A program made the translations under genes and the position numbers. This document shows positions 25,987 to 31,041 of a stretch of 32,398 bases of DNA, piece by piece. The stretch comes from Candidatus Alloenteromonas pullistercoris (GTDB taxonomy: Bacteria; Bacillota_I; Bacilli_A; RFN20; CAG-826). A model generated the notes under the pieces. That model saw only the letters and a list, made by a program, of their open reading frames with translations. It was not told where the DNA came from and ran no database searches. The stretch is from contig JADINA010000029.1 of assembly GCA_017694295.1 (NCBI GenBank), positions 1 to 32,398 of the forward strand. The letters run 5' to 3'. Within the stretch, counting starts at the first letter, position 1, and every line of letters starts with the position of its first letter.

Positions 25987-26217
25987 TTAGCCGATCTTCT
26001 TTTCGATGGCCTTGAATAGGTCGCCGACGGTTTTGAAGGAGGCCAGCTCCTCGTTGTTGAATTGGATGTTGGCCTTATCCTCAAGATCGAGGCACATCTC
26101 GACGACGTCAAGCGAATCGAGGCCGAGATCCTTCAGCCCCTTCGATTCATCGACGCTTTCTAGGTTAAGCCGCTCGGCGAACATCGAGCGGATTTCGTTC
26201 ATCGTAATCTTTGCCAT
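25987..26217 (-). CDS. acpP: Acyl carrier protein
   Basis: A 76-residue acidic protein with the phosphopantetheine site LGLDSLDVVEM (Ser near residue 36), standard for fatty-acid-synthesis ACP. It carries growing acyl chains for FASII and phospholipid acylation. ATG 26217 is chosen (AAAGGA 7 bases upstream); an upstream in-frame start at 26307 would add a hydrophobic extension not found in ACPs. Monocistronic: own promoter with TATAAT at 26257-26262 and own terminator. Confidence 0.96.
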   Translation of the reverse strand: MAKITMNEIRSMFAERLNLESVDESKGLKDLGLDSLDVVEMCLDLEDKANIQFNNEELASFKTVGDLFKAIEKKIG

Positions 26218-26256: not shown

Positions 26257-26284
26257 ATTATAGATAAGGCAAAAGCAAAGAAAA
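26257..26284 (-). promoter_or_regulatory. Promoter of acpP
   Basis: Perfect TATAAT on the minus strand (26257-26262) with a weak -35 (TTTTCT, 16-base spacer). The -10 sits within a CTTTGCT...AGCAAAG inverted repeat (26250-26280), whose half-sites also occur in the palindrome at 10579-10594. Confidence 0.45.
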
Positions 26285-26319
26285 ACAAAAAAAGGAATAG
26301 AGCCCATCCCCCATTCCTT
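26284..26319 (-). terminator. Intrinsic terminator of the Tad-like operon
   Basis: AAGGAAT/ATTCCTT stem (26292-26298 with 26313-26319) and a 14-base loop, followed on the minus strand by a run of T residues. It lies 24 bases beyond the stop of the pilin-like gene. Confidence 0.7.
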
Positions 26320-26342
26320 CTTTCGCTTCCTATCCTTTTCGC

Positions 26343-26498
26343 TTAGTTAAGCGTGGCGATGAGCGAGACTTCCTCGTTGACTTTGCTTTCGATCGCGTCG
26401 CCGGTGTTGGTGAGGGCGCTCATCATGACCCCGCCAACGGCCGCAAACGCGATAAGGGTCAGCAAAATCCCAAGCAGCTGTCCTTTTAGCTCTGACAT
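26343..26498 (-). CDS. Pilin-like small membrane peptide of the Tad-like locus
   Basis: A 51-residue peptide with a short charged head (MSELKG), a single hydrophobic segment (residues 7-29, QLLGILLTLIAFAAVGGVMM) and a short polar tail (TNTGDAIESKVNEEV). Size, position and design match Flp/Flp1-type pilins of Tad systems. However, the Glu at +5 after a G cleavage site, standard for class III prepilins, is missing; G6 is the only plausible processing point. The ribosome binding site is very strong (AAAGGAGGTGACACG), as expected for the most abundant subunit. Last gene of the operon. Could also be an accessory membrane peptide. Confidence 0.65.
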   Translation of the reverse strand: MSELKGQLLGILLTLIAFAAVGGVMMSALTNTGDAIESKVNEEVSLIATLN

Positions 26499-26515
26499 CG
26501 TGTCACCTCCTTTCT

Positions 26516-26854
26516 TCAGACGATATATCCGACGACGGCCGTCCCTTTGACGGTGATGACCATCGTGTCGTCGGCGATGATTAACGGGACGAAGTCGCGG
26601 CAAAGGGTGTAGATGACCGTATCCCCATAGGCCGGGCTTTCGTCGGTGATGAAGCCAAGATAGCAATTGGCGGATGAGATGACCCGCATAAGCTGGTCGG
26701 AAAGATAGCCGTCCCTGGAAAGCCGATAGGCGACTGTGAGGGAAAGGTTATCGAGGCTGGAACGGATGGAGGAGATGCACATGATGTCGCCGCCTATGAG
26801 GAAGGAAAACACCAAGAACATAAGCGAGAGCATCATCCCGAATTTATACGCCAC
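26516..26854 (-). CDS. TadE-like pseudopilin
   Basis: A 112-residue protein with one N-terminal hydrophobic segment (residues 6-22, GMMLSLMFLVFSFLIGG) followed by an extracytoplasmic alpha/beta domain containing two Cys (CYLG and LCRD). This is the TadE/TadF-type pseudopilin plan (short N-terminus, one helix, small exterior domain). The start overlaps the TadC-like gene by 11 bases and its stop is 17 bases before the pilin-like gene. Assigned from context and topology; no residue-level signature. Confidence 0.6.
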   Translation of the reverse strand: MAYKFGMMLSLMFLVFSFLIGGDIMCISSIRSSLDNLSLTVAYRLSRDGYLSDQLMRVISSANCYLGFITDESPAYGDTVIYTLCRDFVPLIIADDTMVITVKGTAVVGYIV

Positions 26855-27512
26855 CGAGAATACCCCCTATGATCTGCCCAACCGCGAGGGCGAGCATGAG
26901 CAAGCTCATCATAGCCCCCAGAAGGGGGAGAAAACTTAAGGCATCGAGCTTGCTTAGGCGCCTTTTCGCCTCATCGGAGCGTTTCTCCTCGCTAAGCTTC
27001 CCAAAAAGACGGTGGAATTGGACAAGGTAACGCGAACGCGAACCCTCCTCGACCATCTGATAGATGCTAACCATGACCTCTTTGATTTTTGGATCTGGGA
27101 AATACGCGGCAAAGTCGGCGAAGGGCAAAACGCTTTTGTCGACGTCTATTCGAGCAAGCAGGGCCTGCAGTTTCCCGGATAAGGAGGGGCTGGCGAACGG
27201 GATGGTGCTTTCAATGGCTTTGTAGACATTGAATCCGTTGTCTATGTAGATTGAGAAATAGGTGAACAGCTTGACGAACTCCGCCTGATCCTTTTCCTTT
27301 CTTTGGCGGATGCAGGCGCCATAGGAGGAAAAGAGGAAGAAGAGGAAGAGGGCGTACCCGGCAAACGGGACCAAAAGCAAATACCCGAACCCGTATAAGA
27401 TGGCGATGGCCACGCCAATCCCGACGAATAGAAGCGTCCCAATGGCCAATTTGGCAATTTCAAATGATAATTTCTTCCCGGAAAGCTCGATTTTGCGGCG
27501 AAGCGATGTCAT
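26844..27512 (-). CDS. tadC: TadC-like inner membrane platform protein
   Basis: A 222-residue protein with an N-terminal pair of membrane helices (about residues 22-62), a cytosolic helical domain of the type II secretion F (GspF/T2SSF) kind (FVKLFTYFSIYIDNGFNVYK and IKEVMVSIYQMVEEGSRS) and a final helix (SFLPLLGAMMSLLMLALAVG). In Tad systems two F-domain proteins, TadB and TadC, form the membrane platform below the pilus. It overlaps the TadB-like gene by 4 bases (ATGA), confirming ATG 27512; a longer frame from 27809 is a shadow. Confidence 0.78.
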   Translation of the reverse strand: MTSLRRKIELSGKKLSFEIAKLAIGTLLFVGIGVAIAILYGFGYLLLVPFAGYALFLFFLFSSYGACIRQRKEKDQAEFVKLFTYFSIYIDNGFNVYKAIESTIPFASPSLSGKLQALLARIDVDKSVLPFADFAAYFPDPKIKEVMVSIYQMVEEGSRSRYLVQFHRLFGKLSEEKRSDEAKRRLSKLDALSFLPLLGAMMSLLMLALAVGQIIGGILGGV

Positions 27513-28231
27513 TTTCCCTTCCTCCTTTTGGCGATTTTGATTGAGCTTAGCTTCCCTTCGGAGAAGCGATAGGCGTAGACGAGGACGGAGCAAAGCAGCA
27601 AGGCGAAATAGACGACCCCGGCGATGAGGAAAGAAGGCGATTCGCTTAAATAGGCGTTGAGGGAGGAAAGCGAAAGCCTCATGAAAACCATGACGAGCAG
27701 CGATAAGCCCCACATCAAGGCGAATTGGGTGAAAAGCCTCACCCCGTTTTGATGGTAGAAGGCATCGGATTCGACGATCCTGGTCGATTCCTCCTCGACC
27801 GTTGAGCAAAGGCTCAGGATGTCGCCGCCCTGCTCAAGGTAGATGCGGAAGACGGAAACGAACATCGGGTAGATGGAATCGTCGAAATACGATTGGAAAT
27901 AGGCGACCTTCTCCTCAGCCGACAACTCAAGCAATCCCTCGGCGAGTTTCTGCCCTTCCTTGGAGCAATTGGCCAAGGCGGACTCGAAGGCCTTCTCGAT
28001 CGAGTTGGTGACGCTTAAGCTCAAAATGAAGGAGGAGATGAAGGAGGCGCATTCCGAGCGACGCATCTTCCTCTTCCCGTAATCCTCCAAAAGGGGGCAG
28101 ACGGCGAATAGGAAGATGGCAAAGCCGACGACGAGTATGCCAACCGCGGCATACAAAGAGGAGGTAACGTAGTACCCGGCGAGGCTTAAAAGCAGGCTTA
28201 GGGCAAGGGATAGAATTATGTTGCTGGCCAT
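27509..28231 (-). CDS. tadB: TadB-like inner membrane platform protein
   Basis: A 240-residue T2SSF-domain protein with two N-terminal helices (LSLALSLLLSLAGYYVTSSL and VGILVVGFAIFLFAV), a cytosolic helical domain (SECASFISSFILSLSVTNSI, then FVSVFRIYLEQGGDILSLCS) and two C-terminal helices (about residues 170-225). It forms the membrane platform with TadC and docks on the TadA ATPase. It starts 11 bases after the tadA stop and overlaps tadC by 4 bases. Some 60-80 residues shorter than proteobacterial TadB. Confidence 0.78.
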   Translation of the reverse strand: MASNIILSLALSLLLSLAGYYVTSSLYAAVGILVVGFAIFLFAVCPLLEDYGKRKMRRSECASFISSFILSLSVTNSIEKAFESALANCSKEGQKLAEGLLELSAEEKVAYFQSYFDDSIYPMFVSVFRIYLEQGGDILSLCSTVEEESTRIVESDAFYHQNGVRLFTQFALMWGLSLLVMVFMRLSLSSLNAYLSESPSFLIAGVVYFALLLCSVLVYAYRFSEGKLSSIKIAKRRKGK

Positions 28232-28242
28232 ATCTAGCTCCT

Positions 28243-29196
28243 TTAAAAAATGGGTTTGACCGAGGCGGAGGCCTCATCGGCATAGCCAATCGACTCGATG
28301 GAGCGGAAGATCTTCCCGTCTTTGACCTTCTTGCCGACGTAAACGTAAAGCTGGAAGTGATGGATGATGTCGCTTAGCAAAGCCTCCATCCCGAGGTTCT
28401 TCCCGCCCATCATCGCCATCCTGGCCATCCGCGAGGGGATGGAGGCAAGGTCGAAGGAATGGAGCGTCGTGATGATGGGACGGCCCGACATGGCGCAATT
28501 GAGGGCATCGAGCATCTCCTCGCCCCGCGATTCGGCCAAAATCAGGTAATCCGGGTCGTTGCGGAGGGCGTTTTTTATCAAAGCGGAATAGGAGGCTTTG
28601 GGGTTGCGCTCATCGACGAGCCAGCTCGTGAGGTCAAGGGAGCCGGAACGGGTAAGCTCAAGCTCCTCGACGTTGTCTATCACAATGACCCTAGTCGACT
28701 CCGCAAGGTGGCTAAGCAAATACTTCTGCAATTCCGTCTTCCCCGCCCCCGTTTCCCCGCCGATGACTATCGAATGCCGCTTTTCCAATGCATTCAGAAG
28801 GATTTTGCGGCTGTTTTTAGGGAAAAAGGACGGGGAATTCTCCAAAATCGGCTCCTCGGAGGCAACACGGAGGGAGAAGGAATATGACTTGCGGCCATTC
28901 ACCCGGGAAATGGAATGGAAGGCGGCGTTTAGCCGGTATAGGCCGAAGCTGATGTCGAGAATCGGGTCCAAATAGGAAAACTGCTTTTCGGATAGGTTGG
29001 CCAATTGGCGAAGGAATGCCCCCACCTCCTCCGGCCCTACCTCGATTTCGGCTTTCTTCCTTCCCTCAAGGTTGGTTTTGAAATAGATCGCTTCGCCGTT
29101 ATAGGCGATATCCGTCACGCCCTCGACGCTAAGCAAAGGGGAGAGAAAGGAGGAGTGGAGTTCCTCAAGCAGACGCTTATCGGAATCGTTTAGCAT
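28243..29196 (-). CDS. tadA: TadA/CpaF-type secretion ATPase
   Basis: A 317-residue ATPase of the VirB11/TadA/CpaF family. Walker A is GGETGAGKTELQ (about residues 146-157); the Walker B/Asp box is LILAESRGEEMLDALNCAMS (about 218-237); THSF (about 244) follows the His box. The N-terminal region (VEGVTDIAYNGEAIYFKTNL) is the CpaF-type sensor domain. It powers assembly of the pilus through TadB/TadC. Shorter than proteobacterial CpaF (about 420-490) because the extended N-terminal part is missing. Starts 13 bases after the TadE-like gene; ATG 29196 is the only good start. Confidence 0.85.
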   Translation of the reverse strand: MLNDSDKRLLEELHSSFLSPLLSVEGVTDIAYNGEAIYFKTNLEGRKKAEIEVGPEEVGAFLRQLANLSEKQFSYLDPILDISFGLYRLNAAFHSISRVNGRKSYSFSLRVASEEPILENSPSFFPKNSRKILLNALEKRHSIVIGGETGAGKTELQKYLLSHLAESTRVIVIDNVEELELTRSGSLDLTSWLVDERNPKASYSALIKNALRNDPDYLILAESRGEEMLDALNCAMSGRPIITTLHSFDLASIPSRMARMAMMGGKNLGMEALLSDIIHHFQLYVYVGKKVKDGKIFRSIESIGYADEASASVKPIF

Positions 29197-29209
29197 CCTT
29201 ATCCCCCCT

Positions 29210-29596
29210 TCATTGCAACCTTATGGCCGTGAAGACCGCGGTCTTGTCGAAATCGAAGAAGGCCCCGCTAGTCCAAAGCCGGACGGAAACGTGATCAGGC
29301 TGCTGCTTCAATTCCGGATAAGCCAGGTTCCAATAATCCATCGTGATGTAAACCGTTGGCGTTGAGAATGGTATTTGCCCCCGGACGTATTCGCGGACCT
29401 TCTTTTGGAAGGAGGAGACGTCGAAGTAAAGCAAGGGCATCGTTGAGCCGGAGGAGGAATAGGCGATGAGGCTCGACTCGGCGATCCCGTTGTAAAGCCC
29501 AAGGAAGCAGCGGTTGAGGGAAGATGTTATATAGGTGTGGTTGAACATCCCCAAGGAGAAGATCAAGGCGAGCCCGCCCAAAAGGAAATTCATCAT
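29210..29596 (-). CDS. Second TadE-like pseudopilin upstream of tadA
   Basis: A 128-residue protein with an N-terminal hydrophobic segment (residues 3-17, NFLLGGLALIFSLG) and an extracytoplasmic beta-rich domain (FSTPTVYITMDYWNLAYPEL and DHVSVRLWTSGAFFDFDKTA). This fits TadE/TadF-like pseudopilins by plan and place. It overlaps the secreted-protein gene by 4 bases and sits 13 bases before tadA. No recognised cleavage motif. Alternatively a small membrane-anchored partner of the secreted protein. Confidence 0.5.
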   Translation of the reverse strand: MMNFLLGGLALIFSLGMFNHTYITSSLNRCFLGLYNGIAESSLIAYSSSGSTMPLLYFDVSSFQKKVREYVRGQIPFSTPTVYITMDYWNLAYPELKQQPDHVSVRLWTSGAFFDFDKTAVFTAIRLQ

Positions 29597-30642
29597 TTGC
29601 TTTCACTCCCCAAGACGACGCATACGTCTCCTTTGGCGTTGCAATGGCCCAATTTGCCGGGGATCGGCACGTTCGGGATTTGATAGGCGAAGGTATCGCT
29701 GCTGCCGTCGATGCCATCGATGACCACCGTGGCGTTTCTTTTCCCGCCGTCATGGGCGAGGGCGGCCGGATAAAAAACCTCGTCGACCAAGGCCTCATTC
29801 ACCCCAATCGACCCGCCTTTGAACTCCCTCATGGAAAGGTCGCGGCGGTCAAGAACGTATTTTTTCGTTGTCTTGAAGCCATAGATGGTCGTCGTGCCAT
29901 TGCGCGTTCCGGTCACCTCCCCCTTCAAGTCGATCACCCTCGTCTTCGTACCGTCGATCGATTCGATTTTCCCAATCTCGAAGTTATCAGGGTAATCGCG
30001 AAGCCAAAGCTCGGCGTCGAGCTCATTGGGGGCAACCCCGTCAGGCGTCCTGAATTCAAGGGTAAGGCAATCGATGCCGACGATGCGGCGCGACTTAAGC
30101 AATGACTGGAAGGTCAAGGCGGATTTCAAGGTCATATAGCAATATTCCTTCACCCCGTTGGTGACCCGGTAACGATCGAGGTTAAGCTCCTCCCCGATGA
30201 CCAGTTCCTCCATATGGAACGGGGAGGACATCGGCCCATAAAGCTGAATGCCGGACCAGAAATAGCCGGCGTCGACGTGGATTCCGTCCTTATACCCCCT
30301 TATTTGCCAATCGAAACGGAAGTTCGACACTTTGGTATAGGCGGCGGGGATGGTGAAATTCATCTCCACGATGCCGGCGTCCTTATCGAATTCCATGGGG
30401 GTATCTATTTGATAACGGACGATGTCCTCGTCGTAATAGTCGACGGCCCTCACCAAAAGGTTGAATTTGTTTTTCCCGTTGGCGGTGTTGAAGGTGAAGC
30501 GGACTTTCATCGGCTCGCCCCGAACCCAATAAGAGGTCCGATAGGAGAAGCCGTCTATGGTCTCGGGAAGGGGCGGCTCGGATGCGGAAAGGGCGGACAA
30601 AACCAAAGGGATGCCAATAAGAGCGGCTTTTGCGTTTATCAT
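29593..30642 (-). CDS. Large secreted beta-rich protein in the Tad-like locus
   Basis: A 349-residue protein not recognised by family. Residues 1-21 are a short hydrophobic signal (INAKAALIGIPLVLSALSAS). The mature part is beta-rich, starts PPLPETIDGFSYRTSYW, has many aromatic residues and four Cys (YCYM, DCLT, then HCNAKGDVCVV near the C-terminus, a likely disulfide pair). There is no transmembrane anchor at the C-terminus, no lipobox and no sortase motif. It is immediately followed by the TadE-like gene (4-base overlap), so it is most likely the exported substrate, tip protein or adhesin of the pilus (inference). The upstream gene is 24 bases away, so it belongs to the same transcript. Confidence 0.6.
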   Translation of the reverse strand: MINAKAALIGIPLVLSALSASEPPLPETIDGFSYRTSYWVRGEPMKVRFTFNTANGKNKFNLLVRAVDYYDEDIVRYQIDTPMEFDKDAGIVEMNFTIPAAYTKVSNFRFDWQIRGYKDGIHVDAGYFWSGIQLYGPMSSPFHMEELVIGEELNLDRYRVTNGVKEYCYMTLKSALTFQSLLKSRRIVGIDCLTLEFRTPDGVAPNELDAELWLRDYPDNFEIGKIESIDGTKTRVIDLKGEVTGTRNGTTTIYGFKTTKKYVLDRRDLSMREFKGGSIGVNEALVDEVFYPAALAHDGGKRNATVVIDGIDGSSDTFAYQIPNVPIPGKLGHCNAKGDVCVVLGSESK

Positions 30643-30666
30643 TTATTTCGCTTTTTGGAGCGAACT

Positions 30667-31041
30667 TCAAAATTCGGCGGCAACCCGATCGTAAATCGAG
30701 TGCAGGTCAAGCTGGAAATCCGGCGTGTCGTAGTAACTTAGATACCAAAACTTGTAATGCCGGCCATGCTCAAGGCACTCGTTGACGAAGATCGCGCCCT
30801 CGAGGGGATCGAGGCGTAGGCTGAATTCCTTCACTTTGCGAAGGAACGAGCCGGCCGCCCCACCGGCGTGGGCTAGAAAATCATCGTCAAGCTTGTCGAG
30901 ATGGTAATCGGGGCTCTTGCCGGTTTGGATTAGGCTTTGGCGGAACAATGCGCCAACTAGCAAGGATTTGTCGCGATTTCCCAAAGAATTGAAATCCAAG
31001 ATGATCGGATTTTCGGCTGGACCGTGAAGTTCGTTCATCAT
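30667..31041 (-). CDS. Uncharacterised cytosolic protein, first gene of the Tad-like operon
   Basis: A 124-residue soluble protein not recognised by family. No signal or membrane segment; alpha-helical, with FNSLGNRDKSLLVGALFRQS, LDKLDDDFLAHAGGAAGSFL, RLDPLEGAIFVNECLEHGRH and a C-terminal LDLHSIYDRVAAEF. AAGGAGG lies 5 bases before ATG 31041; the TTG at 31062 is rejected. It is 24 bases before the secreted-protein gene. Candidate roles are chaperone or regulator of the pilus (inference), since it heads the operon behind the main promoter. Confidence 0.7.
   Translation of the reverse strand: MMNELHGPAENPIILDFNSLGNRDKSLLVGALFRQSLIQTGKSPDYHLDKLDDDFLAHAGGAAGSFLRKVKEFSLRLDPLEGAIFVNECLEHGRHYKFWYLSYYDTPDFQLDLHSIYDRVAAEF

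Follow-up and report, generated by a model that had tools for sequence, protein, structure and literature searches.

A Tad-like pilus operon conserved in Bacilli whose genomes rarely encode an A24 prepilin peptidase

Can a type IV filament be built in cells whose genomes encode no prepilin peptidase? Assembly of type IV filaments is taken always to begin with the processing of prepilins by an A24 peptidase (PMC10191384, review), and no report of peptidase-free Tad systems or of the operon considered here was found in the literature searched. The operon consists of eight minus-strand genes (H, S, E2, TadA, TadB, TadC, E1 and pil, from 31041 down to 26343, coordinates unchanged from a preliminary description of the locus) in a 32,398-nucleotide stretch of Candidatus Alloenteromonas pullistercoris DNA, referred to below as the window. 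The window corresponds to contig 19 in a metagenome-derived genome of 1.42 Mb, and its genus, that of Candidatus Alloenteromonas pullicola, comprises uncultured gut and rumen Bacilli. The preliminary description had proposed that, if the peptidase is absent genome-wide, the operon encodes a reduced pilus or secretion device with a different maturation route, a reading that the present analysis supports. The favoured interpretation, to which a probability of about 0.6 is assigned, is a reduced Tad-type (type IVc) filament machine that would work without an A24 peptidase and with a pilin that is most likely left uncleaved.

No Peptidase_A24 match was found in the genome of the window, in a search that was positive in 12 of 14 control genomes. 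Among 61 relatives, A24 was present in eight, each of which also has a match to a PilB-type ATPase of ~560–590 amino acids (aa). In all six A24-positive members of the genus that were inspected, the A24 gene lies 2–7 kb from PilB and apart from this operon, and in the five of these loci that were read it is adjoined by classical prepilins (G/A↓FTLIE, the arrow marking the cut). Since pil is the same in A24-positive and A24-negative genomes, and the prepilins beside A24 are of the textbook type, A24 and pil are evidently not partners. In a class-wide sample, the ATPase was present in 43 of the 45 genomes of family f1, that of the window, and A24 only in two (G010 and G385), while A24 is present in the majority of genomes from families f17, f20 and f25.

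Divergent A24 proteins were sought in 196 family genomes with a profile (A8) made from the clade's own A24 proteins. Solid matches (E 5e-16 or better) were obtained in seven genomes, and in three of the 116 genomes of good quality. Only two further matches (E 0.0017 and 0.008) were recorded, both of them fragments with open frames of 54–78 codons, one containing stops, and a divergent A24 was rejected on these grounds. Both the Pfam A24 model and the clade profile detect the clade's real A24 proteins at E 1e-9 to 1e-41. A pil profile applied to the same 196 genomes gave 167 matches, 160 of them solid (E<1e-8), with any pil match in 105 of the 116 good-quality genomes. All seven A24 genomes have pil, which leaves 153 of the 160 solid-pil genomes without A24; these include G291 (L251), a single contig of 99% completeness that carries all eight genes. 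A peptidase hidden by incomplete assembly was thus rejected, as was a peptidase borrowed from another pilus, which could hold at most for the seven genomes with A24. No peptidase gene lies inside the operon in the loci read. The absence of A24 is therefore a property of the clade, and what had been posed for a single genome extends to the relatives, the class-wide sample and the family genomes. Because A24 is almost never found in the genomes of the family, maturation of the presumed fibre probably follows a different route. Such a family-wide peptidase-free system makes the need for cleavage, for a free N-terminus and for Glu5 testable.

The candidate pilin was surveyed in 111 loci, which gave 86 distinct sequences of 45–73 aa (median 54). 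Its ATG or GTG start is located 5–18 bases after a Shine-Dalgarno core in 110 of the 111 loci; a longer upstream leader was rejected, because the ribosome-binding site directly precedes the ATG. The N-terminus reads MSE[ILF]K[GA]Q, with E3, K5 and G/A6 present in 86 of 86 sequences and S2, Q7, L9, G10 and F18 nearly invariant, and the place of Glu5 (precursor position 11) is taken by I, M, V or L. Of the pilin-like peptide recognised previously, the Flp-like size, the place and a weak profile match stand, and the Glu5/EY signature is missing. In the favoured interpretation, pil and also E1, the N-terminus of which (MSxKxG) resembles the pil start, would enter the membrane with a short N-terminus left in the cytosol (MSEIKGQ...) and would be assembled without any cleavage other than removal of Met; the conserved E3/K5 pair would perhaps stand in for the N-terminal amine and Glu5. 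Tandem or second pil copies are found in some genomes (L053, L057 and G560:C70:614-954).

The same N-terminus is the basis of the main rival, namely ordinary maturation with cleavage behind G/A6 (MSEIKG↓Q) by a non-A24 enzyme, or by an A24 enzyme too divergent to be recognised. The invariance of K5 and G/A6, the similar start of E1 and the length of the would-be leader, six residues as in classical type III leaders, agree with it. However, leaders removed by cleavage are usually variable, whereas that of pil is itself invariant; Glu5 is missing, the operon holds no peptidase gene, and both A24 profiles are empty in most genomes although they recognise the real A24 proteins of the clade. Cleavage by such an enzyme is thus considered rather unlikely, and an uncleaved pilin is favoured.

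Profile searches ranked TadA first for the ATPase (TIGR03819; E 2.7e-30), although its 105.7 bits fall short of the 373 required for an equivalog, followed by VirB11 (4e-26), FlaI and TrbB, with ComGA (4e-16), PilB (4e-6) and GspE (5e-5) much lower. The best matches among solved structures were VirB11, an archaeal T2SSE-type ATPase and CpaF. The Walker A motif is GGETGAGKT, and the catalytic columns K153, E222 and H246 are invariant. A T2SSF domain was detected in TadC, weakly in the window copy (E 0.0034) and, at E values down to 2.3e-5, in 8 of the 22 relatives. TadB matched no model well, with one weak T2SSF match among its relatives, and its profile aligns to the TadC family (hhalign E 5e-8). 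The ATPase scores and the platform and pseudopilin profile matches thus support assignment to the Tad type rather than to ComG or the type II secretion system (T2SS), in line with the TadA, TadB and TadC homologues proposed in the preliminary description. The TadA-like ATPase occurs once per genome, and no second T2SSE ATPase above cut-off was found in the genome of the window. RcpC/CpaB, reported earlier as missing from the locus, was found in none of 61 genomes (own plus 60 relatives), with a Pfam model that is insensitive for monoderms and was positive in 1 of 14 controls, though the same model recognises an outgroup RcpC (E 1.6e-6). With one such ATPase in each genome and RcpC missing, no second complete tad set was recognised, and the operon does not appear to be a fragment of a set located elsewhere. 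No TadZ-like gene was present in the operon loci read, and no genome-wide search for it was made.

Both pseudopilins expected from the earlier reading were supported by profile comparison. The E1 profile aligns specifically with pseudopilins encoded in outgroup Tad operons (hhalign E 1.2e-7), with a TadF (PF16964) match in one relative (E 2.5e-4), and E2 resembles the first pseudopilin of the same operons (E 2e-5, specific). The AlphaFold2 model of E2 (mean predicted local distance difference test score, pLDDT, 93) has an N-terminal helix (2–33) followed by a helix and a sheet. The large secreted protein S begins with a Sec-type signal sequence, as read from its sequence, and matched no Pfam family. 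Its AlphaFold2 model is all-beta (pLDDT 77), and in a Foldseek search it resembled transglutaminases, RbmA and Cpe0147 in their tandem Ig-like domains (E 4e-5); these were general Ig-like matches with low template modelling (TM) scores. S evolves fast and is probably a tip adhesin or other surface protein. The window copy of H scores 13 bits against NF045770 (cut-off 37.3), and its homologues at the same operon place in related families score 51–71 bits. The cytosolic protein of the preliminary description is therefore retained as such, and is probably a divergent member of the MG284/MPN403 family. Weak similarity of these homologues to the phage regulator ArpU (TIGR01637; E 0.001–0.09) suggests that H is perhaps a DNA-binding regulator.

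In the proposed machine, the TadA-like ATPase and the TadB/TadC platform would push the small Flp-like pil out of the membrane, with E1 and E2 as initiating minor pilins. S would be exported by Sec and signal peptidase I and would cap or decorate the fibre as an adhesin, and H would probably regulate the operon. The locus is thus predicted to operate like a Tad-type filament machine, with the peptidase-free state seen at the level of genomes. Four points weigh against this interpretation. The genome of the window is an 86.7%-complete metagenome bin. The assignment of pil as a pilin draws on its size, its location and one weak profile alignment (E 8e-4, 24%), obtained only to outgroup Flp peptides. 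The K-G/A at pil positions 5–6 is a typical prepilin peptidase cut site, which leaves room for processing by an enzyme outside family A24 or by a very divergent one. A search of the E2 model against PDB folds gave nothing below E 0.02.

Like Tad/Flp (type IVc) pili, the system has a TadA-type ATPase, a split single-domain TadB/TadC pair, TadE/TadF-like pseudopilins and a ~50-aa pilin without a globular domain, and lacks a secretin, as a monoderm. It differs in having no TadV, no detected RcpC and no Glu5-Tyr6 in the pilin, in the additional genes S and H, and in the position of the pilin gene, which is last rather than first. On a strict definition it falls outside the Tad family in TadV and the pilin motif. 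Loci of the MSHA type also lack a peptidase gene of their own, but every MSH genome contains a further system whose peptidase can be borrowed (Denise et al. 2019, PMC6668835), whereas more than 90% of the operon-bearing genomes here are without any peptidase. The Flp system of Mycobacterium tuberculosis was dropped as a peptidase-free precedent, since an adjoining pilD gene is reported (PMC9531140).

Relatives of the ATPase are encoded by 180 stretches of the public genome set, and it was found in 41 of 61 relatives, a few of these matches being to PilB only. A single arrangement, H-S-E2-TadA-TadB-TadC-E1-pil, is shared by the genus, by other genera of family f1 and by families f2, f6, f7 and f8 of the same taxonomic order (38 neighbourhoods read), and gene order together with gene lengths recurs in ~40 loci, more often than chance would allow. 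The ratio of nonsynonymous to synonymous substitution rates (dN/dS) in close pairs is 0.00–0.16 for most genes, with only S and E1 of one pair above that range; it is far below 1 for all computable genes, and in the closest pairs lowest for pil. All eight genes are under purifying selection, and the operon is ancient and vertically kept. S and E2 change fastest, the dN of S being several-fold that of the ATPase, which fits exposed parts.

Some relatives have retained only part of the operon. In four genomes of family f3 and one of f4 (95–98% complete), no TadA match was found, and a contiguous H-S-E2-X-E1 set (L219–L223) is present without ATPase or pil. Their H, S, E2 and E1 match the window families at hhalign E 4e-19, 4e-6, 2e-7 and 2e-8, respectively, and X, which may be a TadB-TadC fusion, aligns with TadC over its C-terminal half only (E 3e-5); the set is interpreted as a putative ATPase-free remnant of the machine. 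In G213 (L246), of the window's own family, GKK replaces GKT in the Walker A motif of the ATPase, the catalytic Glu and the His box are lost and pil is missing; S, E2, TadB, TadC and E1 are kept, followed by a gene for a 320-aa secreted protein. This locus may represent an intermediate step between the full machine and the ATPase-less remnant. Such loci would also suit a complex that derives from a pilus but is static in the membrane, serving as a pseudopilus or secretion device for the display or export of S, with the ATPase and pil as optional additions. However, loci with an intact ATPase also have pil, in strongly conserved form, and the co-occurrence of the two is what a dynamic filament predicts; a static complex is therefore regarded as unlikely.

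A further locus was found in mycoplasmas (family f22; L213–L217), whose H protein matches that of the operon (hhalign E 3.5e-12). Behind the H gene come a gene of ~380 codons and a gene of ~140–180 codons, and then, in 5 of 7 loci, the gene for acyl carrier protein (ACP). In these regions (MG284-MG285-MG286 and MPN403-MPN405), the two genes in the middle are placed like S and E2, but they lack profile similarity to these, and the region has no ATPase, platform or pilin gene. Homology of the middle genes to S and E2 was rejected, as the profile comparison was empty (0.05% and 1–2%), so that only H and its neighbourhood are claimed for mycoplasmas. The ACP of Mycoplasma pneumoniae is MPN406 (PMC4766277), and its H is, by family name, MPN403; a literature search found no paper on the function of MPN403-405 or MG284/285. 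From its position, the H-plus-two-genes locus is conjectured to be the last decay step. The combined proposal, that of a type IV filament without any prepilin peptidase and with an uncleaved pilin, followed by decay from the full machine through the ATPase- and pilin-less remnant to the mycoplasma locus beside ACP (MPN403-MPN405), is offered tentatively. The remnants of the order and the mycoplasma locus could hint at the origin of three mycoplasma genes to which no function is assigned.

A role in DNA uptake has also to be weighed, as Tad-type pili feed DNA uptake in Micrococcus luteus and Liberibacter (PMC4322843, PMC8513845). ComEC-type proteins, which such a pilus would serve, are encoded by 41 of the 61 relatives, and many of these have no A24. 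Their presence does not track the operon, however: in families f4 and f5 ComEC is present where the ATPase is not, and the genome of the window gave no ComEC match. A pilus feeding ComEC is accordingly thought improbable. With the ComG pilus, the operon would share the monoderm type IV filament, and ComEC is often present in these genomes; it differs in its Tad-type ATPase and split platform, and no ComGC-like pilin or ComC lies in the locus.

Outgroup Bacilli carry Tad operons (families f25, f20 and f17; L232–L239) that share the TadA-TadB-TadC core, counterparts of E1 and E2 and a short Flp. They differ in having RcpC/CpaB, a TadZ-like protein in f17, a pilin that keeps its Glu and, mostly, A24 in the genome. 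In f25 and f20, the order is pseudopilin, RcpC (PF16976, E 1.6e-6), TadA, TadB, TadC, Flp (~49 aa, MKAFFEEYGL...) and pseudopilin. The closest outgroup operon, that of f9 (L240, G061), has TadA-TadB-TadC with a 122-aa A24 gene directly after TadC. The ATPases of the order group together as a single clade in a phylogenetic tree (98/95), to which the f9 copy and one from f13 (L241) are adjacent. Given the f9 operon and this tree, the simple reading is that the peptidase was lost at the base of the order. The outgroup Flp peptides start almost at the mature part (MKAFFEEYGL, MKEATGEVSM), and short or missing leaders may therefore be common in monoderm Tad systems. A 678-aa secreted protein is encoded upstream of the f9 operon. 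In L241 (G065), TadA-TadB-TadC and two pseudopilin-like genes are located directly upstream of VirB6-, PrgI- and VirB4-like genes, as in a conjugative element.

The features of the window are listed in Table 1.

Table 1. Genes of the operon and adjoining features, with positions in the window.
Feature	Position	Strand	Description
H	30667..31041	-	124-aa cytosolic protein; probable divergent member of the MG284/MPN403 family
S	29593..30642	-	349 aa; Sec signal sequence; at least 2 Ig-like beta domains
E2	29210..29596	-	128-aa pseudopilin-like protein
A (TadA)	28243..29196	-	TadA/CpaF-type assembly ATPase, 317 aa
B (TadB)	27509..28231	-	TadB-like platform protein, 240 aa
C (TadC)	26844..27512	-	TadC-like platform protein, 222 aa
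E1	26516..26854	-	TadE/TadF-type pseudopilin, 112 aa; GTG start
pil	26343..26498	-	51-aa Flp-like candidate pilin; N-terminus MSELKGQLLG; no long leader, no Glu5
Terminator-like hairpin and T tail	26283..26329	-	immediately 3' of pil; pattern scan, weak evidence
ACP gene	25987..26217	-	conserved downstream neighbour, outside the machine

The spacings along the operon are +24, -4, +13, +11, -4, -11 and +17 bases, which agrees with the overlaps or gaps of 25 bases or less described earlier, and the synteny in related genomes extends the eight-gene order through genus, family and several other families of the order. A pattern scan of the window gave 11 terminator-like sites against 7.8 expected; repeats, promoters and terminators are near chance level there. 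The ACP gene follows pil after ~6–125 bases in most family loci, and a guanylate-kinase-like gene lies divergently on the opposite side of the operon.

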